This document shows, piece after piece, positions 4,685 through 20,576 of a stretch of 64,000 bases of DNA; the first letter of the stretch is position 1, and each line of letters begins with the position of its first letter. Location: contig NZ_BMID01000001.1 in assembly GCF_014641655.1 (NCBI RefSeq), positions 1,292,427 through 1,356,426 of the forward strand, in the 5' to 3' direction. The stretch comes from Pseudoblastomonas marina. Lineage in GTDB: Bacteria > Pseudomonadota > Alphaproteobacteria > Sphingomonadales > Sphingomonadaceae. The notes under the pieces are model-generated. The model ran no database searches, was not told where the DNA came from, and was given only the letters and a program-made list of their open reading frames with translations. The translations under genes were made by a program, and so were the position numbers.

Positions 4685-5487
4685 GCGATCGCCTGACCGA
4701 GCAGGTTCGCGCGGTGATGGAAGATGCCTCGCGGCGCGCGATCGTGCCGCGCTACCGGTCGCTGTCCGCGGGCGAGATCGAAAACAAGGCCACCGACGAT
4801 GTCGTGACCGTCGCCGACCATGAGAGCGAGGCGATTCTCACCGAAGGTCTGGCAAAGATCCTGCCCGAGGCAAACGTGGTCGGTGAGGAAGCCGCCGAGG
4901 ACGATCCGGCGATCATGGACCGGCTCGGCCTAGGGCTGTGCTGGATCGTCGATCCGCTCGACGGGACCAACAATTTCGCGGCCGGGAAGCCGCCCTTTGG
5001 CGTGCTGGTCGCGCTGGCCGATGGCGGGGAGACCATCGCCGGCTGGATCTACGATTGCCAATCGGACCGGTTCTGCCACGCAGGCCGAGGCAAAGGCGCC
5101 TTTGTCGATGGAGACCGTGTAACGGCGAGGACCAGCGAGCAATCCCCGCCGGTCGCCGCGATTTCGACGATCTTCCTCGATGCGGCCGAGCGCGAGGCAG
5201 TGCGCGAGCATATCGCGCCGCATTACCGGCTGGTCGAGATCCCGCGCTGCGCCGCCGAACAGTATCCGCGGCTCGCACTGGGCGAGAACGACGTGTCGCT
5301 GTTCAACCGGACGCTGCCGTGGGATCACGCTGCGGGCGCGTTGTGGCTCGAAGAGGCAGGCGGAAAGGTCGCGCGGCTCGACGGCAGCGAATATCGCCCC
5401 GACGACTGGCAGCGCGCCGGTCTGATCGGCGCGGCTTCGCACGAATTGTGGAATGAACTGGCGGAGCGGGTCGCCGCGATGGGCTGA
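4681..5487 (+). CDS. inositol monophosphatase family protein (possibly histidinol-phosphatase HisN)
   Basis: The 268-aa product has all three metal-binding signatures of Li+-sensitive phosphatases: GEEAAED (about residue 62), WIVDPLDGTNNF (about 88-99) and WDHAAGALWLEEAGG (about 220). The family hydrolyses small phosphomonoesters with Mg2+. Members next to amino-acid genes are often HisN-type histidinol phosphatases, and the GTGA overlap with argJ suggests an amino-acid role, but SuhB- or CysQ-like activity is equally possible. The GTG start is set by the overlap. Confidence 0.85.
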   Translation: MSDRLTEQVRAVMEDASRRAIVPRYRSLSAGEIENKATDDVVTVADHESEAILTEGLAKILPEANVVGEEAAEDDPAIMDRLGLGLCWIVDPLDGTNNFAAGKPPFGVLVALADGGETIAGWIYDCQSDRFCHAGRGKGAFVDGDRVTARTSEQSPPVAAISTIFLDAAEREAVREHIAPHYRLVEIPRCAAEQYPRLALGENDVSLFNRTLPWDHAAGALWLEEAGGKVARLDGSEYRPDDWQRAGLIGAASHELWNELAERVAAMG

Positions 5488-5507
5488 GCCCGCTCAGCCG
5501 GAAACAA

Positions 5508-5828
5508 TCAGAGTTCGCTTTCGAGCCAGCTCTGGAGCTGCGACTTGGGCGCCGCGCCGAGCTTCTGCGCGACCGGTTCGCCGTTCTTGAACAGTACCAT
5601 CAGCGGGATCGACTGGACGCCGAATTTCTGCGGCACCTCGGTGCTTTCCATGATGTCCATCTTGGCGATCGTCACCTTGTCGGCCAGCTCTTCGGAAATT
5701 TCCTCGAGCGCGGGGGCGATCATCTTGCAGGGGCCGCACCATTCGGCCCAGAAATCGACCAGCACGGGCTTGTCGCTCTCGAGGACCTTGGACTGGAAAT
5801 CGGCATCGGTGACGGCGGTGGTGGACAT
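5508..5828 (-). CDS. trxA: thioredoxin
   Basis: A 106-aa classical thioredoxin with the redox motif WCGPCK (Cys31 and Cys34) and the cis-Pro region SIPLMVLF. It reduces cytoplasmic disulfides, for example in ribonucleotide reductase. A clear Shine-Dalgarno AAGGAG precedes the ATG at 5828. It is the last gene of the divL-to-trxA run but has its own promoter-like sequence in the 68-base gap after addA, so it is probably also transcribed alone. Confidence 0.96.
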   Translation of the reverse strand: MSTTAVTDADFQSKVLESDKPVLVDFWAEWCGPCKMIAPALEEISEELADKVTIAKMDIMESTEVPQKFGVQSIPLMVLFKNGEPVAQKLGAAPKSQLQSWLESEL

Positions 5829-5853
5829 GGGAGCTCCTTATCAGTTGCAACGC

Positions 5854-5881
5854 TATCTAGGGCGTGGACGATGTTTCGCAA
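5854..5881 (-). promoter_or_regulatory. candidate trxA promoter
   Basis: On the minus strand TTGCGA (5876-5881), 16 bases and TAGATA (5854-5859) sit about 25 bases upstream of the trxA start codon, in the only sizeable gap of the addB-addA-trxA run. This is a visual match only. Confidence 0.4.
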
Positions 5882-5896
5882 CCACGCGCGCGGCGG

Positions 5897-8800
5897 TTAC
5901 CCCTCGCTACGATCCGACCGAGCCCGCGGTCCTTCGGATTCGAGCAACTCGGGCGGGAGCGCGAGCAGGCGCGGCGCGTGGGTGTAGAGGACCGCCGCCT
6001 CCACGCTCCGCCCCGGATAGATCGCGCGCAGGCTGGCGGCGTAGGCGGCCATCTGGCGCATGGTTGCGGGCGGCATTTCGGCGAGGTTTTCCGGCGGTCG
6101 CCTCGTCGTCTTGAAATCGACCACGAGAACGCGATCGTCCTCGATCAACAGCCGGTCGATAGTCCCCGCGATCACCGCTTCGCCCACGGTCGCCGCGATA
6201 GGAACCTCCGCCAGCGCGTGCGGACCGAAAAGCTTGGACCAATTCGGATCGTCTAGGACTTTCAAGCTACTGGAGACGATTTCTTGGTGTATTTCGAGAT
6301 CGAGGTCGGACGCCTGGGTCGCGAGCCAGGTCAGCGCCCGGTGCTCGCGTTCGGCCGGGTCGACATCGGGCAGGCGTTCGAGCAGGCGGTGGATCAGCGT
6401 CCCCCGACGCGCGGCCGGTCCGGCCTCGCCGGGCGGGAGCGGCGGGTCCGGGGCCTCTTCCTCGCCGAGCGAGGATGGCGCGAGCGGCCGCGGCGGTCGC
6501 GGCTCGGGTCCGACCGGGCGCGCGAGCCAGTCGGGTAGGGCGATTGATTCGCTGGCCGAGGCATGCGTGGCGGCATGCGGCTCTCCGGGTCCGCCGATCA
6601 CGTTGACCGGAATTCCTCGTCGCCCCTCGACCCACCCATCGGGGTCGAACAGCGGTTCGAGCCGTGCGTACCAACTGTCCTCGTGCGGCGCCTTTTCGCG
6701 CGCGCCGAGCGAGCCGGTGACGAACAGCGCTTCCTCGGCGCGGGTCATGCCAACATAGAGCAGCCGCCAGTGTTCGCGCAGCATTTCCGCATCGGCCTCG
6801 GCTTTTGCCTCGGCGAGAGGACCGGCCCGCTGGTCGGCGGGAATCGCGGGCATGGGCAGCTCGGGCGCATCCTCCCGACCCGGCCCGGTCTCGGCCAGCG
6901 CCAGTGCATTCCCGCGCGAGTTTTTCGGATTGTCGGCGGCATCGGCAAGGATCACGATCGGCGCCTGCAGGCCCTTCGAGCCGTGCACGGTCATCACGCG
7001 GACCTGTTCCCCCGCCTTGCCCGCCTCGCGCTTCAATTCCCCCTCGCCCGCGTCGAGCCAGTGGAGGAACCCGGTGAGGCTCGGCACCTGCGACACCGCA
7101 TAGGCGTGCGCGGCATTGAGCAATTCGTCGATCGGGTCGTTGGCCTCCCGTCCCAATCGCGCGACGAGACGCCGCCGTGCTTGCCACGGCCCGGTGAGGA
7201 GCCAGTGGAGGAGGCGTTGGGGCGGTTCGAAATCGGCGCGTTCGAGCAGGCCGCGCATGTGGTCGCGCAGTGCGAGCACGTCGGGATGCGAGGAGGCGCG
7301 CAAATGCTCCCACAACCGGACACTGCCCTCGCGATAGCCGTGTTGGAGCAATTGCTCCTGCGACCAGCCCACCAGCGGCGAAACCAGTAGCGCGGCGAGG
7401 TTTAGGTCGTCCAATGGCTGCGCGGCGAAGCGCAGCGCCGCGAGCAGGTCCTGCACCGCGAGCGGATCACCAAGCCGCAGTCGGTCGACCCCCGCCACCG
7501 GAACGCCCTCCTCGTGCAGCCGCGCGACGATCAGCCCGGCGAGGTCCTTGCGCCGGCGCACCAGCACCATGACGTCGCCCGGCCCGGCATTGCGCGATTC
7601 GCCCTTGTGGAGTGGGAAGCCCTTGTCGAGCATGTCCTTGACCTGCTGCGCGATCCGCGTGGCGAGCCGGCGGTCGGTCGGCTGGATCCAGTCGCCGCCT
7701 TCGGCATCGGGACCCTCGCTTGCACCTTCGCCCTCTTCGAAACCGACCGGGCGCCACAGGCCGATCGTGCCGGGGCGCTCCTCGCCCTCGTGCGGCTCGA
7801 CATCCTGCGGCCGCAGCCCGATCTGCTCGGGCCCGATCGCGGCGATCGCGCGATCGACGAATTCGAGGATCGGCCTGGCGGTGCGGAAGGAGCGTCCGAG
7901 CCCGAGTTCCTGCAGTCCGCGCGGCCCAGCGCTCTCGTTCGCGCGGGCATTGGCCTGCTGCCACGCATCGCGATAGCGCGCCATGCGTTCGCGGACGAGA
8001 TCCCGCGCCCTGCGGAAATTCTCCGGGCTGGTGCCCTGGAAGCCGAAGATCGCCTGCTTGTAGTCTCCGACGACGAACAGCGTGCGGGTTTCGAGCCCGT
8101 GCAAGCCCTCGCCGGTCCAGAATTCCTGCGCCAGCCCCTCGAGGATGATCTTCCACTGCGCGGCATTGGTGTCCTGCGCCTCGTCGACGAGGATGTGGTC
8201 GAACCGGCGGTCGAGCTTGAAGCGGATCCAGTCGGCGACGTCTGCGCGGGTGAGCAATTTCGCGGCGAGGCGGATCTGGTCGTCGAAATCGATCAGTCCT
8301 TCGCGCAGTTTCGCTTCTTCCCATGCCAGCGCATATTCGCGCCCAAGTTCGAGCGCCGGAGCGAGCCAGTCGGCAAGTTCAAGGAGCCGCAACGCGCCTT
8401 CGGCCCGTTCGAGCGCCTCGACCACGTCGTCGATTGCCGGGCCATAGGTGTCGTCGACCTTGAGAATGTTGGCGAGCCGTGCCGGTTTTCCCTCCTTGGT
8501 CAGTACCGTACCGCGGAAAGATTCGAGTGTTTCGAGCCGGGCGGCCGGCTCTGCCGCGAGCCACGCGGCGATGGCGTCCGCCCCGGCAAGTCCGGTCTTG
8601 CTGTTCCATTCGCGCAGGATCGTTTCGCAGTGACGCAGCTGCCCGACGGGAAAGCGGTCGTCGGCGCAAAGTGCGGCGAGGGTCGCGCGCGATGCATCGG
8701 ACGGTAGCCCGAGCAACGCGAGCAGCCGGGGGCGCAGCGGCGGGACGAAGCCCCGCGTTCCGTGCCAGGCATCGTGCGCCTTGGCGCAGCGCCGCAGGAA

Positions 8801-9385
8801 CCATTCCGCCCCGTCCGGCCCGAACCTCAGCGACAGCGCGGCGAGCGCGTCGAGCACCTTGCTATCGTTCCGTTTCTCGGCATCGAGCAGCATGTCGGCG
8901 AGCACTTCGCGCGCGAGCAGGTCCGCCTCGCGCTCTTCCATCGCGCGAAGTCCCGGCTGGAGCCCGGCCTCGTGCGGGAACGCCGACAGCAGCCAGGTCG
9001 AGAAGGCGTGGATCGTATCGATCCGCAGGCCCCCGCCGGGGCAGTCGAGCACCGCGGCGAAGCGCGTGCGCGCGCGGGCGATCGTTTCCCGTCCGACATC
9101 GGCGCCGATATCGGCCAGCTCCTTCGCCAATTTCGTCTCTTCGAGCCGGACCCAGCGTGCGAGCACGCCGTTGACGCGCTCGGCCATTTCGGCAGCGCCC
9201 GCCTTGGTGAAGGTCAGGCACAGGATTTCGGACGGCGAAACATCGGGTTCGAGCAACAGTCGCAGCACGCGTGCGGAGAGGACTTGCGTCTTCCCCGTGC
9301 CCGCCGATGCGCCGAGCCACACGGTGTCGCGCGGATCGACCGCTTCGGCCTGCGCATCGGCCAGCCTGAATATCTTCGCGCTCAC
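5897..9385 (-). CDS. addA: double-strand break repair helicase-nuclease subunit AddA
   Basis: AddA is the UvrD-like 3'-5' helicase and nuclease subunit of AddAB, the alphaproteobacterial counterpart of RecBCD, which resects double-strand ends and loads RecA. The 1162-aa protein has Walker A (GASAGTGKT, near residue 25), DEAQDTN (motif II), VMTVHGSKGLQ and YVGMTRAEE late helicase motifs, and a C-terminal PD-(D/E)XK nuclease domain (GTLIHRLLE, then GTIDRLLIE and VVDFKTT). The GTG start at 9385 overlaps the addB stop as GTGA; an upstream ATG at 9412 would lie inside addB and adds a non-family extension. Confidence 0.95.
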   Translation of the reverse strand: MSAKIFRLADAQAEAVDPRDTVWLGASAGTGKTQVLSARVLRLLLEPDVSPSEILCLTFTKAGAAEMAERVNGVLARWVRLEETKLAKELADIGADVGRETIARARTRFAAVLDCPGGGLRIDTIHAFSTWLLSAFPHEAGLQPGLRAMEEREADLLAREVLADMLLDAEKRNDSKVLDALAALSLRFGPDGAEWFLRRCAKAHDAWHGTRGFVPPLRPRLLALLGLPSDASRATLAALCADDRFPVGQLRHCETILREWNSKTGLAGADAIAAWLAAEPAARLETLESFRGTVLTKEGKPARLANILKVDDTYGPAIDDVVEALERAEGALRLLELADWLAPALELGREYALAWEEAKLREGLIDFDDQIRLAAKLLTRADVADWIRFKLDRRFDHILVDEAQDTNAAQWKIILEGLAQEFWTGEGLHGLETRTLFVVGDYKQAIFGFQGTSPENFRRARDLVRERMARYRDAWQQANARANESAGPRGLQELGLGRSFRTARPILEFVDRAIAAIGPEQIGLRPQDVEPHEGEERPGTIGLWRPVGFEEGEGASEGPDAEGGDWIQPTDRRLATRIAQQVKDMLDKGFPLHKGESRNAGPGDVMVLVRRRKDLAGLIVARLHEEGVPVAGVDRLRLGDPLAVQDLLAALRFAAQPLDDLNLAALLVSPLVGWSQEQLLQHGYREGSVRLWEHLRASSHPDVLALRDHMRGLLERADFEPPQRLLHWLLTGPWQARRRLVARLGREANDPIDELLNAAHAYAVSQVPSLTGFLHWLDAGEGELKREAGKAGEQVRVMTVHGSKGLQAPIVILADAADNPKNSRGNALALAETGPGREDAPELPMPAIPADQRAGPLAEAKAEADAEMLREHWRLLYVGMTRAEEALFVTGSLGAREKAPHEDSWYARLEPLFDPDGWVEGRRGIPVNVIGGPGEPHAATHASASESIALPDWLARPVGPEPRPPRPLAPSSLGEEEAPDPPLPPGEAGPAARRGTLIHRLLERLPDVDPAEREHRALTWLATQASDLDLEIHQEIVSSSLKVLDDPNWSKLFGPHALAEVPIAATVGEAVIAGTIDRLLIEDDRVLVVDFKTTRRPPENLAEMPPATMRQMAAYAASLRAIYPGRSVEAAVLYTHAPRLLALPPELLESEGPRARSDRSEG

Positions 9386-12354
9386 GCCCCGTCCTCCGGC
9401 GCGGCGATCCATTCCTCGAGCCGCATCAGCTGGTCGTAATCGTTATACCCCTCGTAATCGGGGTTCTCGCGCGCGGTGAAGGGCGCGTCGCCGGTGATGA
9501 ATTTCGCGATACCTTCGCGCAGGAAGTCTTCGGTCCGATCGAGGAATTCATCGCGCGGAATCCCGCGTTTCCCACGAGGCCCCGGATGCGGGGTTTCGAC
9601 ATAGCCGAAATTTCCGTCACGTGCGCGGGCGAGGGACCAATATTCGAACTTTTCGGGCGTTCCGCGCACGCCCTTGAACGCGCCCTCGCGCGCCATCAGC
9701 CCGATCAGCCCGAGCTGGAGCGCAAAGCCGTGCTCGACCTGCGCCTTCGAGGGCGGGCTACCGGTCTTGTAATCGAGGATCGCGAGACTGCCGTCTTCGA
9801 GCCGATCGATCCGGTCGGCGCGCCCCTTGAGCACCGCACCGGCGATCGGGATCTCGCCATCGACCTCCCATGCGATCGGCAAGCGCCCCTCCTCAGCGAG
9901 CTCCTCGGTATGCTTCACCACCCAGTCGAGAGCCTGTTGGAGCCGAGGCCACCACAGGTGCCGCACCAGCGGGTGGCCCGACATCCTCGCGAGTTCGTCG
10001 GCTGCAAGAACGTGGAGCTCGCCCTCGCCCTTGTGCCAGCGTTCGAGGATGTCGTGCACCGCGGTGCCCTTCCACGCGGCGGAAGGTTCGGCGTCGAGCG
10101 GATCGAGCGCCTTGAGGCGAAGGATTTCGGAAGCATAGAACTGGTAGGGATCGCCCAGCAGCCGGTCGAGCGCGGTGACGCGAACCTTGACCTGCCGCTG
10201 CTCGGCCGACGGCCTTGGCGCAGGTCGCGCGGCCGCGTCTGCGCGTTCGGCATCGTCGACCGCCCGCGCCAGCGTCACGGTGTCGTGATCGCGGTGCTTG
10301 TCGGCCAGCGTTTCGCCCATCAGTGCCTCGACCCGCAGCACGAAGCGCGAGGGGATCACCGGCCCGCTCGCGTCGCGGCGGGCGTGGCTAAGAATCATCT
10401 CGGGCGCCCCGAGCGCGGCGGAAAGGTCGTGTGCGGAAAGCCCGATCCGGAACTCGCCATCGGGCACGCCGAGCACGCGCATGATCGCAGGTGGTAGCAG
10501 CGCATCGGGCGCCGGTGCGGCGGGCCAGGAGCCTTCGTGCATCGCGCCGCAGATAACGAGCTCCGCACGGCTCATCCGGCTTTCGAGCAGCCCGTAGATG
10601 GAGACGCGCGGATGGCCGCCCCAGGGCGGGCGCACCGCGACGCGCTCCATCGCCTCGCGCAGGATCGACGGGAGTTCGCGGGGCTCGAGCGCGGTCGGGA
10701 CGGCACGAGCCTGCTCGCGCAATTCCTCGAGGAAGGCGGACAGCGCGCGGCCTTCCGCCCCGCCCCACAACCCGACCGAGCCGAGTGCTTCGCTGGTTTC
10801 GGCAAGCAGGTCGAGCGCCGCATCGAGCGCGATCTCCTCGCGCGGTTCGAACAACGGGGCGAGCAGCGCTTCGACCTCGCCCCACCAATCGCCGAGCCTA
10901 TTCTTCTCCGCCACCGCGCGCAGGGGTGCGAGACCCGGTGCCGGGCGCGGCCCGCGCAATTCTCGATCGAACCGGCGCGCATTCTCGAGCCAGCGGGCGC
11001 GTTCACCTTCGCGCATGACCAGCGGGTGCTGCAACAGCGCGGAAAGCGCGATCGGCCCGCCCTCGCCGCCCATCAGCTCGGCCGCGAGCAGGAACAGACG
11101 CCCGGGCGCAGTCTGCGGCAGCGGTGTACCCGCGGTGTCGTCGGCCTCGATATGCCAGCGGCGCAGGTGCGCGACCACGCGCGACGCCAATCCGCGATCG
11201 GGGGTTACCAGCGCGACGCGTTTCTCCGGCGTTTCGAGCGCCTCGCGAATCCGGATCGCAATTGCCTGCGCCTCTTCCTCGGGATTGGCGCACTCCATCA
11301 GCGTCACACCGGCAAGCCGGCGCTGTTCGATATCGAGCCCGGCCCAGCGCGCCGAGGGCCCCGGCGGAAGGAACAGGTTCGAGATCGCGGTGCTGCGATC
11401 GGGGCGCGCGGCCGCGATCCCCGCGCGGTGCCAAGGCTGGACCTCGGCGCGGTTCACGCCCATCCGGTTGAGCAGCAGCTTCAGGTGGTATTGCGGATGG
11501 GTCAGCGCATCGGCGCGCCCGATCGGCGGTCCGCCCGCCTCTCCGGACTGGCCGGCGAGCCCGAGATCGTTCCACACCTCGTCATCGAGCGAGAGGTCGA
11601 GATCGGGCAGGATCACCGCGCCGTTTTCGAGCTCGCTGACCGTCCGCAGCAGCTTCGCCAGCGAGGGCGAGGCGCTGGTGACCCCCGCAGCAACAATGGC
11701 CTCGGTTGGCGGGTTTTCCCTCCAGCGCCTGGCGGCATGCTCGAACAGGCGATTGCGCCGGGTGGGCGCATCGACCTCGCCGCGCTCGTCGAGCAGGGCG
11801 AGCCAGTGCGCCTGGATCGTCGCGAACAGACGGGTCGAATCCTGCCAGTGGTTGGCGAGCTCGGGAAAAAGGGAGAGCACGCGCTCCTCGAACAGCTCTC
11901 CGGGCGCGATTCCCTCGACCAGCAGGCGATCCATCGTGCCTGCGATTTCGCGCGCCTGCCGCAGCCGCGATGCGGCGAGCAACCGGTCGTCCTTGGCGTA
12001 ATACGGGTCATGATCCTTGAGCAGCCGCGCCAGTTCGAGCCAGCGGCGCGTCGGATCGACCGCGGGCGGGATCGCGGCGCTATCCTCGCCGATCGGATCG
12101 AGCAGCGGGCCGAGCGTCTCGTCGAGATCGAGGTCGCCGACCACCGCCATGCGCGGCAATAGCAGCCCGCCGTCGGAAGCGCGCACGAAGGCCTCGGTCA
12201 CCGTCCGAGCTGCGCGGCGGCTGGGCAGGAGCAAGGTCAGCTTGGCGAGGCCAAAGCGGTCGTCGCGATAGCGCGGGATCAATCCGGCGGCGAGCGCATC
12301 GGCGAAACCGCGATGCGCGGCGATCGAGTAGACTTGCGGGCGTCCGCTCCCCAC
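9382..12354 (-). CDS. addB: double-strand break repair protein AddB
   Basis: AddB partners AddA; in characterised enzymes it recognises Chi and carries a second nuclease. The 990-aa protein has an N-terminal LLLPSRRAART segment in place of a strict Walker A, as is usual in alphaproteobacterial AddB, and a C-terminal PD-(D/E)XK nuclease (LKGRADRIDRLEDGSLAILDYKTG). The four-cysteine iron-sulfur cluster of Bacillus AddB is absent. The open frame reaches 12645, but the upstream 97 codons overlap murU and look unlike protein. GTG at 12354, seven bases after the murU stop, is the natural start. Confidence 0.93.
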   Translation of the reverse strand: MGSGRPQVYSIAAHRGFADALAAGLIPRYRDDRFGLAKLTLLLPSRRAARTVTEAFVRASDGGLLLPRMAVVGDLDLDETLGPLLDPIGEDSAAIPPAVDPTRRWLELARLLKDHDPYYAKDDRLLAASRLRQAREIAGTMDRLLVEGIAPGELFEERVLSLFPELANHWQDSTRLFATIQAHWLALLDERGEVDAPTRRNRLFEHAARRWRENPPTEAIVAAGVTSASPSLAKLLRTVSELENGAVILPDLDLSLDDEVWNDLGLAGQSGEAGGPPIGRADALTHPQYHLKLLLNRMGVNRAEVQPWHRAGIAAARPDRSTAISNLFLPPGPSARWAGLDIEQRRLAGVTLMECANPEEEAQAIAIRIREALETPEKRVALVTPDRGLASRVVAHLRRWHIEADDTAGTPLPQTAPGRLFLLAAELMGGEGGPIALSALLQHPLVMREGERARWLENARRFDRELRGPRPAPGLAPLRAVAEKNRLGDWWGEVEALLAPLFEPREEIALDAALDLLAETSEALGSVGLWGGAEGRALSAFLEELREQARAVPTALEPRELPSILREAMERVAVRPPWGGHPRVSIYGLLESRMSRAELVICGAMHEGSWPAAPAPDALLPPAIMRVLGVPDGEFRIGLSAHDLSAALGAPEMILSHARRDASGPVIPSRFVLRVEALMGETLADKHRDHDTVTLARAVDDAERADAAARPAPRPSAEQRQVKVRVTALDRLLGDPYQFYASEILRLKALDPLDAEPSAAWKGTAVHDILERWHKGEGELHVLAADELARMSGHPLVRHLWWPRLQQALDWVVKHTEELAEEGRLPIAWEVDGEIPIAGAVLKGRADRIDRLEDGSLAILDYKTGSPPSKAQVEHGFALQLGLIGLMAREGAFKGVRGTPEKFEYWSLARARDGNFGYVETPHPGPRGKRGIPRDEFLDRTEDFLREGIAKFITGDAPFTARENPDYEGYNDYDQLMRLEEWIAAPEDGA

Positions 12355-12361
12355 CCGCGCC

Positions 12362-13078
12362 TCAGCGTTCCGCGAGCGCGGCTTCGGTGGGCGCGATCGC
12401 CTCGGGCGTGCCGACCTCGAACCACTCGCCGGTGTGGACGAGCCCGTGCAAACGGCCTTCCGCGATCGCGCGTTCCCACAGCAGATTGGTCGAAAACTTG
12501 CCCGCGGGCGCATCGCGCAGCAGGCGGTGCGAGACGAGCTGGATCCCGGTGAAGATATAGGGCGCGACCCGCCCCGGCTCGCGCCGCGTGATGCGGCCCA
12601 GCGGGTCGAGGTAGAAATCGCCCTCGCCGCGGTAATTGCGCGCATTGTGATGGCGCACCAGCAGCAGCAGCGCGTCCATCGCGCCCGGGTCCCAGCCCCG
12701 GCTCAGTTCGGTGAACACGTCGCGCGGGCCGTCTAGCCAGATATTGTCGCTGTTGAGGCAGAAGAACGGATCGGAGAGGCTGTCGCGTGCGCGGATCATG
12801 CCGCCGCCGGTTTCGAGCAGCTCCTCGCGCTCGTCCGAAATCTCCACCGCGGGATGCTTCCGGGTCTTCACATGCGCTTCGAGCGCGTCGGCGAGGTAGT
12901 GGACGTTGACCACCGCCCTCGCGACCCCGGCATTGGCGAGTTCGTCGAGCGTGTGGTCGATCAGGTGGCGTCCCGCGACCTTTACCAGCGGCTTGGGCTG
13001 GGTCGCGGTGAGCGGCCGCATGCGCTTGCCGTAGCCCGCCGCCATTACCATTGCGCAATCGCTCGCGAGCTTGCTCAT
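12362..13078 (-). CDS. murU: nucleotidyltransferase, probable N-acetylmuramate-1-phosphate uridylyltransferase MurU
   Basis: The 238-aa sugar-phosphate nucleotidyltransferase begins with MVMAAGYGKRMRPLT, the NTP-binding G-x-G-x-R-x-x-P-x-T loop, followed by PKPLVKVAG. It has the metal-binding NSDN (NTP transfer) around residue 107. In Pseudomonas and Caulobacter MurU turns MurNAc-1-P into UDP-MurNAc, so recycled wall sugar bypasses fosfomycin-sensitive MurA. The ATGA overlap with the AmgK-like kinase gene upstream makes this assignment more likely than a generic glucose- or mannose-phosphate transferase. Confidence 0.85.
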   Translation of the reverse strand: MSKLASDCAMVMAAGYGKRMRPLTATQPKPLVKVAGRHLIDHTLDELANAGVARAVVNVHYLADALEAHVKTRKHPAVEISDEREELLETGGGMIRARDSLSDPFFCLNSDNIWLDGPRDVFTELSRGWDPGAMDALLLLVRHHNARNYRGEGDFYLDPLGRITRREPGRVAPYIFTGIQLVSHRLLRDAPAGKFSTNLLWERAIAEGRLHGLVHTGEWFEVGTPEAIAPTEAALAER

Positions 13079-14055
13079 GCAGCGAAGCTCCCGCCGCCGT
13101 TTTCGCGCAATTCGTGCGGGACATTCGCATCGAACCAGCGCGCGACCGGGGCGAGCGCGGGATGGGCGAGGTCGCGTTCGAGTAGGTCCCAGACGCGCGG
13201 GATCAGGTCGAGGTAGCGGGCCTTGCCGTCGCGCTTCCACAGGCGGGTGAAAATCCCGACGATCTTGGCATTCCGCTGCGCCCCGAGCCTGGCGTAATCG
13301 GCCTCGAATTCGGCGCCGGGGTCGGCCTTCGACAGGTAGTAGTCGAGCATTTCGCGCTCGAGTTCGGGCGCGACGTCGCGGCGCGCATCCTGCAGCAGCG
13401 AGACGAGATCGTAGGCCTTGTGGCCGACCAGCGCGTCCTGGAAATCGAGCAATCCCTGCTTGGTCAGCGCACCGAGCAGCATGATGTTTTCGGCATGGTA
13501 GTCGCGAAGCACGGTAACCCCGTCTCGCTGATTGCGCAGAACGGGAAGCATCGCCTCCTGCCAGGCGTCGACATAACCGCCATCATCGACATCGAGGCCC
13601 TGCGCGGGACAATACCATTCGGTGAAGAGCCGGACCTCGCGGGCATATTCGGCCCACGAATAATCGGGAAACGGCCCCGCGGGCTTCGTGTGCAGTTCGA
13701 CCAGCGCGTCGATCGCGCCGCGATAGGTATCGGCTTCGTCCTGCGGCCATTCGTCGAGATAGTCGCGCATCCGCGCTGACCCGAAATCCTCGAGTAGGAC
13801 GAAGCCGCTGGCGTCGTTCTCGGCATGAATCTCGGGCGCCCGCAGCCCCTGGTCGCGCAACCAGCGATCGGCGCGGACGAAGGGGCGGATATCCTCGGTG
13901 GGCGGCGGCGCGTGCATCAGCAGCGCGCTGTCCTCGCCGCGGCTCAGCCGCCAGTACCGGCGGAACGAGGCATCGCCGGTCAGCGCCTCGGCGCGGGCGC
14001 TGCCCCATCCGGCATCGGCAAGGAAAGTGTCGGCGCCCTCTGGCAGGTCGTTCAT
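13075..14055 (-). CDS. amgK: sugar kinase of the aminoglycoside-phosphotransferase fold, probable AmgK
   Basis: The 326-aa product has the APH/choline-kinase fold: the catalytic loop VLRDYHAENIML and the metal-binding DFQDALVGHKAYDLVSLLQD (about residues 200-225). AmgK phosphorylates MurNAc and GlcNAc at the anomeric position, supplying MurU. The start at 14055 overlaps the tsaE stop (ATGA), and the stop overlaps the murU start. The longer reading frame to 14178 lies inside tsaE. Substrate is inferred from the partner gene. Confidence 0.85.
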   Translation of the reverse strand: MNDLPEGADTFLADAGWGSARAEALTGDASFRRYWRLSRGEDSALLMHAPPPTEDIRPFVRADRWLRDQGLRAPEIHAENDASGFVLLEDFGSARMRDYLDEWPQDEADTYRGAIDALVELHTKPAGPFPDYSWAEYAREVRLFTEWYCPAQGLDVDDGGYVDAWQEAMLPVLRNQRDGVTVLRDYHAENIMLLGALTKQGLLDFQDALVGHKAYDLVSLLQDARRDVAPELEREMLDYYLSKADPGAEFEADYARLGAQRNAKIVGIFTRLWKRDGKARYLDLIPRVWDLLERDLAHPALAPVARWFDANVPHELRENGGGSFAA

Positions 14056-14489
14056 GGCAAGCGTCCCTGCCAGCCCGCACCGCCTTCGACAATGGCGAAA
14101 CGGGCGCCCTCGCCTTTTTCGAGACGGATCGAGAGACAGCCCGCCTCGTGATCGAAGCCGCCCGCCCGATCGGGCCATTCGGCCAGCAATGCAGCGCCCT
14201 CGCGATACTCGTCGAGACCGATCTCCTCGAGCTCGGCGGGGTCTTCGAGCCGATAGAAATCGGCGTGGACGATCCGCGGATCGAGCGTGTCGTAGGCCTC
14301 GATGATGGTGAAACTCGGCGACGGGACCTCGCCGCGATGGCCTGCCGCTTCGATCACCGCCCGCGCGAGCGTCGTCTTGCCCGCCCCGAGATCGCCCGAC
14401 AGCGCGACGACGTCCCCGGCCCGCAACCGGGCTGCGATGTCGCGTCCCAAAACGGCGACTGCTGCGAGATCGGGCAGTTCGCGGCGCAT
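14052..14489 (-). CDS. tsaE: tRNA threonylcarbamoyladenosine biosynthesis ATPase TsaE
   Basis: TsaE is the ATPase of the TsaBDE complex that makes the universal t6A37 modification on ANN-decoding tRNAs. The 145-aa protein has Walker A GDLGAGKTTLAR (about residue 32) and the family motif PSPSFTIIEAYD followed by HADFYRLEDPAELEEIGLDEY. I use the ATG at 14489, one base after the divL stop; a TTG three codons upstream overlaps divL. Coupling of a tRNA-modification ATPase to wall salvage is a common alphaproteobacterial gene order. Confidence 0.93.
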   Translation of the reverse strand: MRRELPDLAAVAVLGRDIAARLRAGDVVALSGDLGAGKTTLARAVIEAAGHRGEVPSPSFTIIEAYDTLDPRIVHADFYRLEDPAELEEIGLDEYREGAALLAEWPDRAGGFDHEAGCLSIRLEKGEGARFAIVEGGAGWQGRLP

Positions 14490-14490
14490 T

Positions 14491-16821
14491 TCAGGCAATA
14501 TCGATCAGCGCCGCGGTGCCCTGCCCTTCTTCGGACATGACCTCGAGCCGGCCTCCATGCGCCTCGACGATCCGCTTCGCGAGGGGAAGGCCGTAATTGA
14601 CGCGCCTCTCGACCGTCTTTCCGTCGGCGCTGACCATCAGCCCGTCGAGCGCACGGGCGAGCTGGAGTGCGTCCATGCCCATCCCGTCATCCGAGATCAC
14701 GATCCGCACACCGTCCCCGCGGGCGAGCAGCTTGACGAGGATCCGCCCGCCATCGGGCAGCGCGTTGATCGCATTGTCGAGGATATGCCCGATCGCCCGA
14801 GCAAGGCGGCGCTCGTCGCCGCGGATGCGGGTTTCTTCTTCGCCGGTCCGCAGTTCGAGCCTGATCCCCCTGGCGTCGATCTTCTCGCGCCGCGAATCGA
14901 TGATCGCCTGGAGGAACGGCTCGAGCACGATCGATTCCTTGACCAGCGGGAGCATGCCGGCCTCGCTCTGCGACAGGTCGAGCACGTTCTCGACCTGCTC
15001 GACCGAATCGAGGATCGCCCGCAGATAGGCCATGCCGTCTTCGGTCAGCTCGCCACCGAGCCCGGTCTCGAGCAGTTCGGCAAAGCCGCGCATCGAGGTC
15101 AGCGGGGTCCGGAATTCGTAGCTCATATTGGCGAGGAAGCGCGTTTTCATCGCGTCGGCCTCGACCAGCGCGGCATTGCGCGCGCGCAGCGCCTCCTCGG
15201 CCTTCTGCGCATCGGTGATATCGAGCACGGTCAGAAGCCCGTTCCCGTCGGGCAACGGGACCCCGGCGAATTCGAGAATGCGGCCATCGGACAGGCTCAC
15301 TCGCCCGACACCCTGTGAGCGGTCGAGCGTTGCGGCGCGCACGACGTCGCCGATCTGCCCGGCTTCCTCGCCCTCGCGCAGGCTCTTCTGGATATGGGTC
15401 AGCAGGTCGTCGATCCGGGGATGCTGGTCGAGGAACTCTTCTTCGAGATCCCAATCCGCCATGAAGCGGCGGTTCCAGAGCTGGAGGCGACCGTCGGGCC
15501 GGAACACCGCGATCGATTCGAACAGGCTGTCGAAGGTCGCGGTCCGGGTGCGGAGCAGCGTGTCCTGCGACGCCGAGAGCTTGAGCTGCTCGGTCCGGTC
15601 TTCGGCCAGCAGCAGCAAGCCGCCATCGGGATCCGGCTGGGCGAAGATTCGCAGATGGGTACCGTTGGGCAGCGTCCAGCTTTCCTCGTTGGTTTCGTTC
15701 GAGGTGAACCATTCCTCGCGCTCGGTCCGCCAGGCCGGAAAATCTCGCACCTGCGGAACCCGGTTCTGGTCGCGGGCGATGTCGAGCCAGCGATTGAAGC
15801 TTGGCCGCTCGCGCATCTGCTCGAAACTGATGCCGAAACTGCGCTGGAACGGCCGGTTGGCGAAGATCAACTGGCGGTTCGAATCGAACTGGGCGACGCC
15901 GGCGGATAGCTTGTCGAGCATGTTGCGCTGCGCCGTCCGGAACGCCTTGAAGCTACGCGCGAGCTCTTCCATGTCCTCGACATCGATCGCGTATCCCGCA
16001 ATCCCTTCCTCGCCCAGCGGGAGGTCGGATACGCGCAGCGCGCGGCGCTGGCCGTTGATCGTCGAGGTCACCATCCGCTCGATCGGCTGGCGCTGCTGGC
16101 CCGCCTCGCGCGCGACCTGGGCCGCACCCAGCCCGTTGACCGGTTCGATAAGCTCGATCTGCTCGGCCACCACCTCTTCGGCATCACGTGCGCCGACGGC
16201 GGCAACGTAGGCACTGTTGACCAGCCGGATCTTGCCCTGCTCGGTGCGGAACCACATCGGCATGGGTGCCGCTTCGAGCAGGCCGACGAGCGCAGCGAAA
16301 TCGCCCTGCGCGCGCTTGGCCTCGGCCCGCAGGCGCGCCAGCTCGCTCTCGCTGTCGGAGAAATCGAACACCCAGACCAGCGCGGCGCCGCCGGGCGAGA
16401 CCTGCGGATCGGCCAGATGGCCGCGCAGCGAAAGGCTGCGCGACGAGCCGCGCGGAGTGATCATCATGCGGAACGGGGCAGCCGTCTTCTGCGTGCGACG
16501 GACGTTCTTCTGCAGCGTTTCGACCTGCTGGTGCGTGAGGCCGCTTTCTCCCTCGGCCAGCTCGCTGAGATAGGTCGGCATCCGGTCGAGCCCGAACCAG
16601 CCGGCGAGCCGGGCCGAAGCCTCGATCCTGCCATCCGAACGGACCAGCAGCGGAAGCGCCGGCGATTCGTCGAGCATCCGCTGCATGCGCTTCAATCCGG
16701 TGCGCATGTCGCGCGCCTGGCCGGTCGCCCGGCTCGCCAGGTAGATCGCTGCGAGCGCGGCCAGCGTCCACCCGCCGAGCACGACCCCGATCAGCGCCAG
16801 TGTGGTAGGCGAAAATTCCAT
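14491..16821 (-). CDS. divL: DivL-like PAS-domain pseudo-histidine kinase
   Basis: A 776-aa membrane-anchored protein: one transmembrane helix (about residues 8-28), several PAS-type sensor segments (about 45-540), a dimerisation domain and a C-terminal HATPase domain. The H-box reads MSYEFRTPLTS, so the phospho-accepting His is Tyr568. The N-box (HILDNAINAL) and DDGMGMD box survive, but the last glycine box is changed to RRVNYGLPLAK. In Caulobacter DivL (769 aa, Tyr550) the same substitution defines a cell-cycle regulator that reads phosphorylated DivK and controls CckA and CtrA. Start ATG 16821 (MEFSPTTL) is taken just before the helix. DivL orthology is inferred from length, layout and the Tyr. 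Confidence 0.82.
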   Translation of the reverse strand: MEFSPTTLALIGVVLGGWTLAALAAIYLASRATGQARDMRTGLKRMQRMLDESPALPLLVRSDGRIEASARLAGWFGLDRMPTYLSELAEGESGLTHQQVETLQKNVRRTQKTAAPFRMMITPRGSSRSLSLRGHLADPQVSPGGAALVWVFDFSDSESELARLRAEAKRAQGDFAALVGLLEAAPMPMWFRTEQGKIRLVNSAYVAAVGARDAEEVVAEQIELIEPVNGLGAAQVAREAGQQRQPIERMVTSTINGQRRALRVSDLPLGEEGIAGYAIDVEDMEELARSFKAFRTAQRNMLDKLSAGVAQFDSNRQLIFANRPFQRSFGISFEQMRERPSFNRWLDIARDQNRVPQVRDFPAWRTEREEWFTSNETNEESWTLPNGTHLRIFAQPDPDGGLLLLAEDRTEQLKLSASQDTLLRTRTATFDSLFESIAVFRPDGRLQLWNRRFMADWDLEEEFLDQHPRIDDLLTHIQKSLREGEEAGQIGDVVRAATLDRSQGVGRVSLSDGRILEFAGVPLPDGNGLLTVLDITDAQKAEEALRARNAALVEADAMKTRFLANMSYEFRTPLTSMRGFAELLETGLGGELTEDGMAYLRAILDSVEQVENVLDLSQSEAGMLPLVKESIVLEPFLQAIIDSRREKIDARGIRLELRTGEEETRIRGDERRLARAIGHILDNAINALPDGGRILVKLLARGDGVRIVISDDGMGMDALQLARALDGLMVSADGKTVERRVNYGLPLAKRIVEAHGGRLEVMSEEGQGTAALIDIA

Positions 16822-16873
16822 TCCCCGTGAGCTATGACGGCTCGCGCGCGGACGCAACTTCGATGAACAAAGA

Positions 16874-16905
16874 AACGGGGCGCTCCGTCGCCGGAACGCC
16901 CCGTT
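16874..16905 (-). terminator. intrinsic terminator of ahcY
   Basis: Inverted repeat AACGGGGCG...CGCCCCGTT (16874-16882 with 16897-16905) with additional pairing towards the loop. On the minus strand it is followed by TTCTTTG, 18 bases after the ahcY stop codon. It separates ahcY from the divL operon. Confidence 0.8.
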
Positions 16906-16923
16906 CTTGTCGGATCCCGTCGC

Positions 16924-18333
16924 TTAGTAGCGGTAGTGTTCGGGCTTGAACGGCCCGTCGACCGGCACGCCGATATAGTCGGCCTGCTTCTGGCTCAGCT
17001 TGGTCAACTGCACGCCGAGCTTGTCGAGGTGGAGCGCGGCGACTTTTTCGTCGAGATGCTTGGGCAGCACGTAGACGTCGTTCTCGTACTGATCGTCGTT
17101 CTTCCACAGCTCGATCTGCGCCAGCACCTGGTTGGTGAACGAGCAGCTCATCACGAAGCTGGGGTGACCGGTGGCGCAGGCGAGGTTCACGAGGCGGCCC
17201 TTGGCCAGGACGATGATCTCCTTGCCGTCGGGGAACTTGACCAGGTCGGTGCCCGGCTTGAGTTCGGTCCACTCGTAATTGTCGAGCGCGCCGATCTGGA
17301 TCTCGCTGTCGAAGTGGCCGATGTTGCAGACGATGCTCATCGGCTTCATCGCCTTCATGTGCTCGGCAGTGATGACGTCTTCATTGCCCGTGGTCGTCAC
17401 GAAGATATCGGCGCGCTTGACGCCTTCTTCCATGGTCACGACCTCGAACCCGTCCATCGCCGCCTGAAGCGCGCAGATCGGATCGATTTCGGTGACGAGA
17501 ACGCGCGCGCCGCCATTGCGGAGCGACTGCGCCGAGCCCTTGCCGACATCGCCGAAGCCGGCGACCAGCGCGACCTTGCCCGAGAGCATGACGTCGGTCG
17601 CGCGACGGATCGCGTCGACCAGCGATTCTCGGCAACCGTAGAGGTTGTCGAACTTCGACTTGGTCACGCTATCGTTGACATTGATCGCCGGGAACGGGAG
17701 CTTGCCCTTCTTCGCCAGCGAATAGAGGCGGTGGACGCCGGTGGTGGTCTCTTCGGAGACGCCCTTGATGTTCTTTACCGACTGGGTGAGATAGCCCGGC
17801 TTCTTCTTGAGGAATTCCTTGAGAGCGCGCTGCATCTCGATTTCTTCGGCGTTCTGCGGCGCAGGCATTTCCTCGCCCGCCTCGATGCGCGCGCCCCACA
17901 GCGCGAACATCGTCGCATCGCCGCCATCGTCGAGGATGATGTTCGCCGTCTGGTCGGCATCGTCCTCGGTCGACCAGTCGAAGATCTTGCCGACGTAATC
18001 CCAATATTCCGCCAGCGTCTCGCCCTTCACGGCGAAGACCGGGATGTCCTGGTCGGCCATCGCTGCGGCGGCGTGATCCTGCGTCGAATAGATGTTGCAG
18101 GTCGCCCAGCGAACTTCCGCGCCCAACGCGCGCAGAGTCTCGATCAGCACCGCGGTCTGGATCGTCATGTGAAGCGATCCGGTGATGCGCGCGCCCTTCA
18201 ATGGCTGCGCGTCGCCATATTCCTCGCGGATGGCCATGAGGCCGGGCATTTCGGTTTCGGCGATGCGGATTTCCTGGTGGCCGTATCCGGCCAGCCCGAT
18301 ATCCTTGATGACGTAATCCTTGGCAGCAGCCAC
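16924..18333 (-). CDS. ahcY: adenosylhomocysteinase
   Basis: AhcY reversibly splits S-adenosylhomocysteine into adenosine and homocysteine, removing the product inhibitor of methyltransferases. The 469-aa protein has the NAD-binding motif [12 protein letters not shown], the STQDHAAAA substrate loop, the roughly 40-residue insertion typical of bacterial forms, and the invariant C-terminus KPEHYRY. GTG at 18333 is chosen because AGGAG lies at good spacing before it; the longer open frame to 18612 runs through the leader hairpin and operator-like palindrome and into the next gene. Regulation is likely through that leader. Confidence 0.96.
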
Positions 18334-18393
18334 GGTATTCTCCTGAAACTTGCGTGATACGCGCCGTTCCAGGCCGTCGAATGCAGACAAACC

Positions 18394-18423
18394 AAGGGCG
18401 GCGCAGGGACCGGCGCCGCCCTT
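18394..18423 (-). promoter_or_regulatory. stable hairpin in the ahcY leader
   Basis: AAGGGCGGCGC (18394-18404) pairs perfectly over 11 bp with 18413-18423 around an 8-base loop. It lies 60-90 bases upstream of the ahcY start, between the palindrome at 18448 and the ribosome-binding site. No U-run follows on the minus strand, so it is not an obvious terminator. It does not match the SAH riboswitch consensus that I remember. Confidence 0.5.
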
Positions 18424-18447
18424 AGCCTCTCCCCCGGCGCGAAGCAA

Positions 18448-18467
18448 ATATAAAGATGTCTTTATAT
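18448..18467. promoter_or_regulatory. 20-bp palindromic operator upstream of ahcY
   Basis: ATATAAAGATGTCTTTATAT is a perfect inverted repeat with 9-bp arms and a 2-base centre, strikingly AT-rich in 65% GC surroundings, 115-134 bases upstream of the ahcY start. ArsR-family SAH-responsive regulators (SahR type) control ahcY and met genes in several Proteobacteria through palindromes of this style. The protein that binds here is inferred, and no arsR gene is in the window. Confidence 0.6.
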
Positions 18468-18488
18468 GAGCCCCGACCGAAGTATCGC

Positions 18489-18944
18489 CTAGCGCCTCGC
18501 GTAGGTGGCGGACCCGCCCCGGCCGTCGGCCAGGAGGTCCCGCGAGGCGGCGATGAGAGCCGCGTTGTCGCCCTGCGCCAGATCGGACGCGAGACGCTTC
18601 AATTGCTCGCAATCGAGGAACGGGTGCCCCTGCCCGTAGGTATTGGCCATCTGCACGCTCAGCCGATCGAGCTGGCGCTTGGCTCCGCGCTTGCCGTGGC
18701 GGCTCTCGAGCTCGCGTTGCATCGAGCGGCTCGCGGCGTTCAGCCGGTCGATATGGCGCGCGCTGAAATCGCGGTAGTCCTGCTGGAAATCGTCCACCGT
18801 CGTGCGACAGCGCAGTGACGTGACCATCAGCATGATGCCGAGTTCGCGCACCCGTTCGTGCGACGCATCCTGCGCCGTTGCAGGCATTGCCGACAGCAGT
18901 CCCGCTGCCGCCAGGCCCAAGCCCAGCCCTTTGATATATTTCAT
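18489..18944 (-). CDS. exported protein, function unknown
   Basis: The 151-aa protein starts [25 protein letters not shown], a clear Sec signal peptide. The mature part is helical and charged, with two cysteines (RCRTTVDDF and DCEQL) that could form a disulfide. A strong ribosome-binding site GGAGGGAATGAC precedes ATG 18944; the longer open frame to 19010 adds no recognisable sequence. It is monocistronic between ahcY and a divergent peroxiredoxin gene. I do not recognise the family. Confidence 0.7.
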
Positions 18945-19114
18945 GTCATTCCCTCCAAGCAGCCCCAAACTGCTGAACGGAGAGTCGACGTTCAAACTTT
19001 CGAAAACCATCCCAAGGGCGGTAAAGAGAAATTAACCATGGCGGGCCCGGGTCAGGACCCTATATCGCCTCCATACGTTCCCGGGTTCGCACCTCAATTT
19101 CAGGACATGACGAT

Positions 19115-19600
19115 ATGACGATTTCCGTTGGCGACAAGCTTCCCGACATCCAGCTGGTCAAGGCGACCCCCGATGGCCCGCAACCGGTCCAGAGCGGCGA
19201 CTACTTCGCCGGCAAGACCGTCGCGCTGTTCTCGGTCCCCGGGGCCTTCACCCCGACCTGCTCGGCGCGTCACCTGCCAGGCTATGTCGAGAAAGCCGAG
19301 GAACTGAAGGCAAAGGGCATCGACGAAATTGCCTGTACCGCGGTGAACGATGCGTTCGTCATGGGCGCATGGCAGCAGGCCGGCGACGCGTCGGCGGTGA
19401 CGATGCTGGCGGACGGCAATGGCGATTTCGCGCAGGCAACCGGGCTCAGTCAGGACAGTTCGGCCTTCGGCATGGGCAAGCGGGGCCAGCGCTATTCGAT
19501 GATCGTCGAGGACGGCGTGGTAAAGGAACTCAACGTCGAGGAGCCGGGCGATTTCAGCGTGTCGAGCGCCGATCACATGCTCGGCCAACTCCAGGGCTGA
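19115..19600 (+). CDS. peroxiredoxin, Prx5/AhpE-like (1-Cys or atypical 2-Cys)
   Basis: The 161-aa protein reduces hydrogen peroxide and alkyl hydroperoxides through a peroxidatic cysteine in VPGAFTPTCS (Cys49). The PGAFTPTCS loop, VNDAFVM and GQRYSMIVEDGVV segments identify the Prx5 subfamily. A further Cys (IACTAVND) could be resolving, or glutathione could reduce it; glutathione reductase is encoded at 43.2 kb. RBS AGGAC precedes the ATG. The next gene follows after 11 bases. Confidence 0.93.
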   Translation: MTISVGDKLPDIQLVKATPDGPQPVQSGDYFAGKTVALFSVPGAFTPTCSARHLPGYVEKAEELKAKGIDEIACTAVNDAFVMGAWQQAGDASAVTMLADGNGDFAQATGLSQDSSAFGMGKRGQRYSMIVEDGVVKELNVEEPGDFSVSSADHMLGQLQG

Positions 19601-19611
19601 TCCCTACCGGA

Positions 19612-19968
19612 ATGGATTGGGGCTATCTCGCGATCAAGGCGCTCGTATCGGGCGTCCTGATCGCGCTGGCCTCCGAAATCGCGCGTCGCAACCCGGGCGT
19701 CGGCGGGCTGATCGCCTCGCTGCCGCTGGTCAGCACGCTCGCGCTCGTCTGGCTGTGGCGCGATACCGGCGACAAGGGACAGGTCGCCGACCTCGCGATT
19801 GCCAGTACGCTATACGTAATCGGGTCGCTGCCGGCCTTCCTCGCGATTGCGCTGATGTTGCGCAACGGGGTAGCCTTCATCCCGACGCTGCTGGCCGGAA
19901 TTGCGGTCGGCTTCGCCGGCTACTGGTCGATCGGGCGTATCGGCGGCGCGTTGGGTTGGCCGGTCTAG
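19612..19968 (+). CDS. DUF3147-family membrane protein
   Basis: A 118-aa integral membrane protein with four hydrophobic segments (about residues 5-22, 34-49, 60-82 and 88-112). The pattern LASEIARRNPGVGGLIASLPLVSTLALVWLWRD is recognisable as the DUF3147 family, whose function is unknown. ATG 19612 lies 11 bases after the peroxiredoxin stop, suggesting co-transcription. Its stop codon overlaps the stop of convergent folE by two bases. Confidence 0.75.
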   Translation: MDWGYLAIKALVSGVLIALASEIARRNPGVGGLIASLPLVSTLALVWLWRDTGDKGQVADLAIASTLYVIGSLPAFLAIALMLRNGVAFIPTLLAGIAVGFAGYWSIGRIGGALGWPV

Positions 19969-20576
19969 CCGTACCCCATCAATCGCAGCACTTCCTCGCG
20001 GCTGCGCGGATCGTCGAGGAAGGTGCCCATCATCCGGCTGGTGACCATGCCCACGCCCGGGGTGCGAACGCCGCGCGCGGTCATGCAGCTGTGCTGCGCG
20101 TCGATCACCACCGCCACCCCCTGCGGCTGGAGGTTCTCCCAGATACAATCGGCGACTTCCGCCGTAAGCCTTTCCTGCACCTGCAGGCGCCGCGCGAAGC
20201 CGTGGAGCACGCGGGCAAGCTTGGAAATGCCGACGACCCGATCATTGGGCAGGTAGGCAATCGCCGCCTTGCCGATGATCGGTGCCATGTGGTGCTCGCA
20301 ATGCGACTGGAACGGAATGTCCTTCAGTAGGACGATCTCGTTGTAACCGCCGACTTCCTCGAACACCCGGCTCAGGTGGACGGCCGGGTCCTCGGTATAG
20401 CCGATGCAGTATTCCTTCCACGCGCGAGCGACGCGCGCGGGCGTATCGAGCAGGCCCTCGCGGGTCGGATCGTCGCCGGTCCATTCGATCAGCGTACGGA
20501 TGGCGTCCTGCACGTGATCCGGCACCGGCGGCTTGCCGCGGGGGTCGTCCTCATCGGGGCCGACGATACTGCTCAT
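19965..20576 (-). CDS. folE: GTP cyclohydrolase I
   Basis: FolE converts GTP to 7,8-dihydroneopterin triphosphate, the first step to folate. The 203-aa protein has the zinc and active-site motif SHCEHHMAPIIGKAAIAYLP, the LQVQERLT stretch, and the QHSCMTARGVRTPG signature with the second zinc cysteine. ATG 20576 (MSSIVGPDEDD) is five bases after the phospholipase stop, so it is the third gene of the hemerythrin-PLD-folE operon. Confidence 0.96.
   Translation of the reverse strand: MSSIVGPDEDDPRGKPPVPDHVQDAIRTLIEWTGDDPTREGLLDTPARVARAWKEYCIGYTEDPAVHLSRVFEEVGGYNEIVLLKDIPFQSHCEHHMAPIIGKAAIAYLPNDRVVGISKLARVLHGFARRLQVQERLTAEVADCIWENLQPQGVAVVIDAQHSCMTARGVRTPGVGMVTSRMMGTFLDDPRSREEVLRLMGYG

Follow-up and report, generated by a model that had tools for sequence, protein, structure and literature searches.

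A DivL pseudokinase within a known alphaproteobacterial gene order in Pseudoblastomonas marina

The closest described counterpart of the gene neighbourhood analyzed here is found in Brucella, where ahcY, divL and tsaE, and further on addB, addA and trx, lie in one co-transcribed operon that the available text of PMC9491525 (2022) describes as ancestral to the alphaproteobacteria. Within the literature on DivL together with tsaE, ahcY, addA, amgK and murU, a description of this linkage was found only in that text; the accessible part of PMC13046382 mentions neither addB nor divL, and that of PMC8116508 reports no clear pattern of divL location in Sphingomonadales genomes. The linkage of divL with its neighbours is therefore not new, as the arrangement is already in print for Brucella. 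The closest described counterpart of the protein is Caulobacter DivL, which, according to the available portion of PMC4211667, lacks autokinase activity and has a dispensable CA domain.

The window, that is, the whole stretch of 64,000 nucleotides that was analyzed, corresponds to G000:C1:1292427-1356426 in a genome of 2.6 Mb. Its divL gene (14491..16821, minus strand) codes for 776 residues comprising an N-terminal helix, which is probably a membrane helix, PAS domains, a DHp domain and a CA domain. Tyr568 of the DHp domain (codon 15118..15120, minus strand), which sits within FLANMSYEFRTPLTSM of the translation, was earlier said to replace the phospho-His; it is read in frame and falls on Tyr550 of Caulobacter DivL (PDB 4q20), with Arg571 falling on Arg553 when residues are counted from Tyr550. 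Both Arg571 and Pro573 are kept alongside Tyr568. In the same alignment, one Caulobacter DivK-docking position, Arg553, is conserved as Arg571, and two others are changed, Tyr562 to Phe and Ala601 to Ser.

Several comparisons place the product among the DivL proteins. First, 4q20 is its top PDB sequence match (E 5e-29, against 6e-19 for the runner-up). Second, in a tree built from 95 kinase cores, all 88 DivLs, 4q20 included, form a single clade (support 0.887), and six other kinases of the window genome and HK853 (4jas) fall outside it. Third, several PAS domains precede the core, with PAS families above the Pfam cut-off, and an AlphaFold2 model (mean pLDDT 83, pTM 0.37, with low confidence in the ATP lid at 729-739) contains four PAS-like folds, a DHp domain and a CA domain by our reading of its secondary structure. 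In a structure search, 4q20 is the first match that covers the core alone, at rank 23 overall; an NCBIfam scan matched no DivL model to the product. The top PDB match and the clade both place the kinase core closest to DivL among histidine kinases, bearing out the earlier note's identification of a DivL-type pseudo-kinase. Judged by these sequences, the gene product is a canonical DivL pseudokinase, an ordinary member of a known family of cell-cycle regulators.

The last glycine box of the ATPase domain had also been called altered, as in a regulator. The alteration is present: the G2 box reads NYGLPL (residues 742-747; 14581..14598, minus strand), where relatives have GLGLPL or similar. It is no signature of a regulator, because 60 of 87 aligned DivLs (22 named ones and 65 from genomes of the order) still have all three ATP-site motifs, as scored with simple patterns. 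At the phospho-His site, by comparison, 85 of the 87 carry Tyr, one carries Asp (G022), one Ser (G028) and none His; thus the Tyr hardly varies and the ATP site has degenerated repeatedly, which fits the account of Caulobacter DivL in the available portion of PMC4211667. Two genomes were left out of both this count and the tree, G083 with a remnant lacking the DHp domain and G066 with a match that is another kinase, and G105, having no DivL match, is absent from both. In the window's own family, f1, the ATP-site motifs are intact in 24 of 33 DivLs, and the window DivL lacks G2 only; all 12 DivLs of family f5 have lost the N-box Asn and DxGxG, and divL is still kept there. By the alignment, the G2 change is a decay within a lineage and not a DivL hallmark; the ATP site of DivL seems free to decay, and in the window's lineage the G2 box is gone.

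A tie between the ATP site and DivK was considered and rejected. According to the accessible text of PMC2877005, the kinase domain of DivL is retained only in the presence of DivK. A DivK match was obtained in all nine f5 genomes tested, and yet all 12 f5 DivLs lack the N-box Asn and DxGxG; the state of the ATP site therefore does not depend on DivK. This check is at the level of motifs, whereas that text concerns the domain as a whole, and f5 still has it. In two further genomes, G001 and G022, divK is unmatched at 1e-20, yet DivL is there, with its ATP site decayed.

Under relaxed selection, divL could be on its way out of the window's lineage, perhaps without function already. The lost G2 box would agree with this, as would a branch that by eye is longer than those of near neighbours in the kinase-core tree and the remnant or absent divL of two family members, G083 and G105. 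We nevertheless judge it very improbable that the gene is being lost, given that the 776-residue frame is intact with Tyr568, Arg571 and Pro573 in place, that DivK, CckA, ChpT and CtrA are all encoded in the genome, and that f5 retains DivL after losing the N-box and G1 throughout.

Downstream of this canonical DivL, tsaE (14052..14489) begins one base past the divL TGA, with its ATG at 14489. It is followed by genes for an AmgK-like sugar kinase (13075..14055) and a MurU-like uridylyltransferase (12362..13078), then by addB (9382..12354, with a GTG start at 12354 chosen by eye), addA (5897..9385) and finally trxA, coding for thioredoxin (5508..5828), all on the minus strand. TsaE, AddB and AddA score above their NCBIfam cut-offs; the kinase and the uridylyltransferase have AmgK and MurU as their top NCBIfam models, with scores below the cut-offs (227.7 bits against 500, and 237.6 against 370). 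The one-base spacing to tsaE and the succession of genes are as the earlier note had given them. Of the 4-bp overlaps that it saw through the run, those at tsaE/amgK and amgK/murU (ATGA in each case) and at addB/addA (GTGA) stand, making three of six junctions only, and those at murU/addB and addA/trxA do not: the former genes are about 7 bp apart, measured to our own choice of start at 12354, and the latter 68 bp. Upstream of divL lies ahcY (16924..18339, minus strand; above its NCBIfam cut-off, start approximate), and the next two genes beyond it are a minus-strand gene for a protein of 173 residues and a plus-strand gene for a redoxin. The 173-residue protein (18489-19010) has a signal-peptide-like start and no Pfam match.

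The space between ahcY and divL contains a terminator-like hairpin of 15 pairs and a T-rich tail (16873..16906, minus strand; fold z -3.99), by far the strongest hairpin in a consensus scan of positions 3500-20000. That scan gave one promoter-like site (1.2 in shuffles) and nine terminator-like sites (9.9 in shuffles), numbers that match the shuffles and thus indicate no excess of either; it found no sigma-70-like promoter before divL and no terminator-like hairpin between divL and tsaE. Among 26 family loci in which both ahcY and divL were matched, 16 have a terminator-like site within 100 nt past the ahcY stop and 10 have none by the same rule, which yields 0 of 26 past the divL stop, 1 in 1300 dinucleotide shuffles and 0 in 520 windows inside divL. 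(A count of 42 in 65 loci, made by a laxer rule with no control, was set aside.) The hairpin sequences vary from locus to locus, so the position seems to be kept while the sequence turns over. The suggestion that divL heads the run thus gains support for the family from the hairpin predicted behind ahcY, past which divL is probably the first gene of a unit divL-tsaE-amgK-murU-addB-addA-trxA.

The gene order recurs widely. A survey of the order, covering 118 genomes, gave a DivL match at 1e-60 in 108 and a TsaE match in 113, of which 112 entered the adjacency count, the weak match in G017 (E 9e-4) being left aside. Both genes are present in 107 genomes; in 105 of these they lie side by side on the same strand, and in the remaining two on separate contigs of fragmented assemblies. 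Named genomes supplied 80 tsaE loci, 29 of them alphaproteobacterial (28 by title and L048 by gene content). A divL match lies upstream of tsaE in 22 of these 29, with 1 to 2 kb between the genes in L041 and L044; the upstream DNA is short or missing in L045, L058 and L093, and is present with no divL match in L042, L060, L065 and L101. The other 51 loci, many of them short, gave no amgK, murU or addB match to the window proteins, and three of them (L062, L073 and L107) gave a distant kinase or helicase match. The part from divL to trxA, often with ahcY, is found in free-living genera such as Microvirga, Kaistia and Sphingomonas. In the twelve f5 loci (L148-L151, L159 and L163-L169), murU is matched in 11 and amgK is unmatched in 10, and a MurU-like gene is kept without the usual kinase beside it.

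Natural losses of divL bear on what this conservation means. Of 95 genomes with a completeness of 90% or more and contamination no higher than 5%, 92 have divL. The three without a whole divL are G105, G066 and G083, and in all three ahcY, tsaE, amgK, murU, addB, addA and trxA are still together. In G105, a PIN-domain gene (L153:12682-13119, minus strand) stands between ahcY and tsaE in place of divL; this genome has no divK match at 1e-20, no ChpT domain, a diverged CtrA (66% identity) and a CckA match of E 2e-123, poorer than in the ten other family relatives tested (3e-154 or better). G066 lacks divL, divK, chpT, cckA and ctrA at the thresholds used. G083 retains a 109-residue frame between ahcY and tsaE (L152:12636-12962, minus strand), only the CA end of divL, and keeps divK, chpT, cckA and ctrA, so the loss is not always joint. 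The divK, chpT, cckA and ctrA check covered 40 hand-picked genomes, these three included, and the joint losses are therefore counts and not a statistical test. Thus divL can be lost while its neighbours stay, and in two cases divK and chpT are missing as well.

These observations divide the linkage of cell-cycle control, t6A modification, wall salvage and break repair that the earlier note had read from the run. The physical linkage holds across the order. A functional one is not supported, because three near-complete genomes without a whole divL retain all seven neighbours, and because in two of them the further losses lie in the DivK/ChpT pathway, with CckA and CtrA also affected. We therefore hold it improbable that the cluster is a functional module in which co-expression with divL would put t6A modification, wall recycling and break repair under the control of the cell-cycle state. 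The near-universal adjacency of divL and tsaE, the close spacing of the genes, the same run at most alphaproteobacterial tsaE loci and, according to the accessible part of PMC8116508, the activation of DNA repair genes by CtrA in several species would all favour such a module, but it has to contend, besides the survival of the neighbours, with f5 loci in which amgK is unmatched while divL and tsaE stay, and with the lack of a CtrA box near divL, the nearest of three one-mismatch sites in the window lying some 2.2 kb away from the divL start, at 19021. The cluster is rather an inherited alphaproteobacterial gene order, most likely maintained because its housekeeping genes are closely spaced and transcribed together, and not because they serve one pathway.

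The partners through which DivL would act are encoded in the window genome: DivK has Caulobacter DivK as its best PDB match (E 9e-34), CtrA scores above its NCBIfam cut-off, CckA is best named CckA but scores below its own, and a ChpT-type domain (PF10090) is present at E 4e-34. By analogy with Caulobacter, from which both the binding and the control of CckA are carried over, DivL would read DivK~P through its DHp domain and would set CckA, and hence ChpT and CtrA, with no phosphotransfer of its own.

Among the 15 HisKA matches of this genome, inspection by eye found no ordinary DivJ- or PleC-type kinase; the NCBIfam scan among them covered CckA and two unlinked kinases with complementary defects. 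HK-A (G000:C1:1189170-1190825, minus strand; L127:1671-3326) has a strong HATPase match, and HK-B (G000:C1:1564436-1566397, plus strand; L126:937-2898) matches HisKA but not HATPase. Wherever it was found in the family (17 of 17 genomes), HK-A retains the N, G1 and G2 boxes and lacks the His, its place being taken by Pro (12 genomes), Arg (2), or Ser, Gly or Ala (one each); HK-B, in all 17 family genomes where it was found, has HELR and is missing the N-box Asn and DxGxG. Outside the family there is a sole HK-A relative, in G007, and its His is normal. A search of 24 genomes detected HK-A in 18 and HK-B in 17; of the 20 that belong to the family, 17 have both and 3 neither, a co-occurrence weaker than it appears, since HK-B-like proteins under the match threshold occur in G094 and G053 (L265, L273), two of the three HK-B negatives. 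Split histidine kinases exist in other bacteria. No such pair was found in titles and abstract openings on PleC, DivJ and DivK in Sphingomonas or on split or degenerate kinases, which is no proof of absence. In this family, HK-B might receive its phosphate in trans from HK-A and hand it on to DivK, to be read by DivL; we regard this scheme as rather unlikely, and the link to DivK is a guess. If true, three kinases, each catalytically incomplete alone, would surround one relay.

Taken as a whole, the locus is very probably explained by a canonical DivL pseudokinase, the likely head of its unit, in an inherited gene order that likely reflects no common pathway. Against this explanation, the order-wide adjacency of divL and tsaE exceeds what would be needed if the neighbourhood meant nothing; further points are the changed docking residues, the relay genes kept in G083, the 10 family loci with no hairpin and the missing NCBIfam DivL match. 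The finding is thus settled as a known regulator within a known ancestral gene order. The analysis adds that free-living lineages retain the gene order, that the ATP site of DivL has degenerated repeatedly with the Tyr preserved, and that divL can disappear from between neighbours that remain, twice together with divK and chpT; these observations argue against inferring function from the neighbourhood.

Compared with the 16-gene bvrR/bvrS operon of Brucella abortus, the window has the same one-strand series of ahcY, divL, tsaE, a nucleotidyltransferase gene, addB, addA and trx, the nucleotidyltransferase of Brucella being annotated as a mannose-1-P guanylyltransferase and MurU-like by our own reading. 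The window differs in having amgK and a terminator-like hairpin before divL, and in lacking a small gene between ahcY and divL or between addA and trxA; upstream of ahcY, where Brucella has bvrR/bvrS, hprK and pts genes, its next two genes are neither bvr nor pts. Compared with Caulobacter crescentus DivL (4q20), the window protein has a degraded G2 box (NYGLPL against GPGLGL), two different docking residues and about a third identity in the core. It shares with that protein the Tyr in place of His, the conserved Arg after it and the layout of multiple PAS domains followed by DHp and CA, and its genome, like that of Caulobacter, encodes DivK, CckA, ChpT and CtrA.
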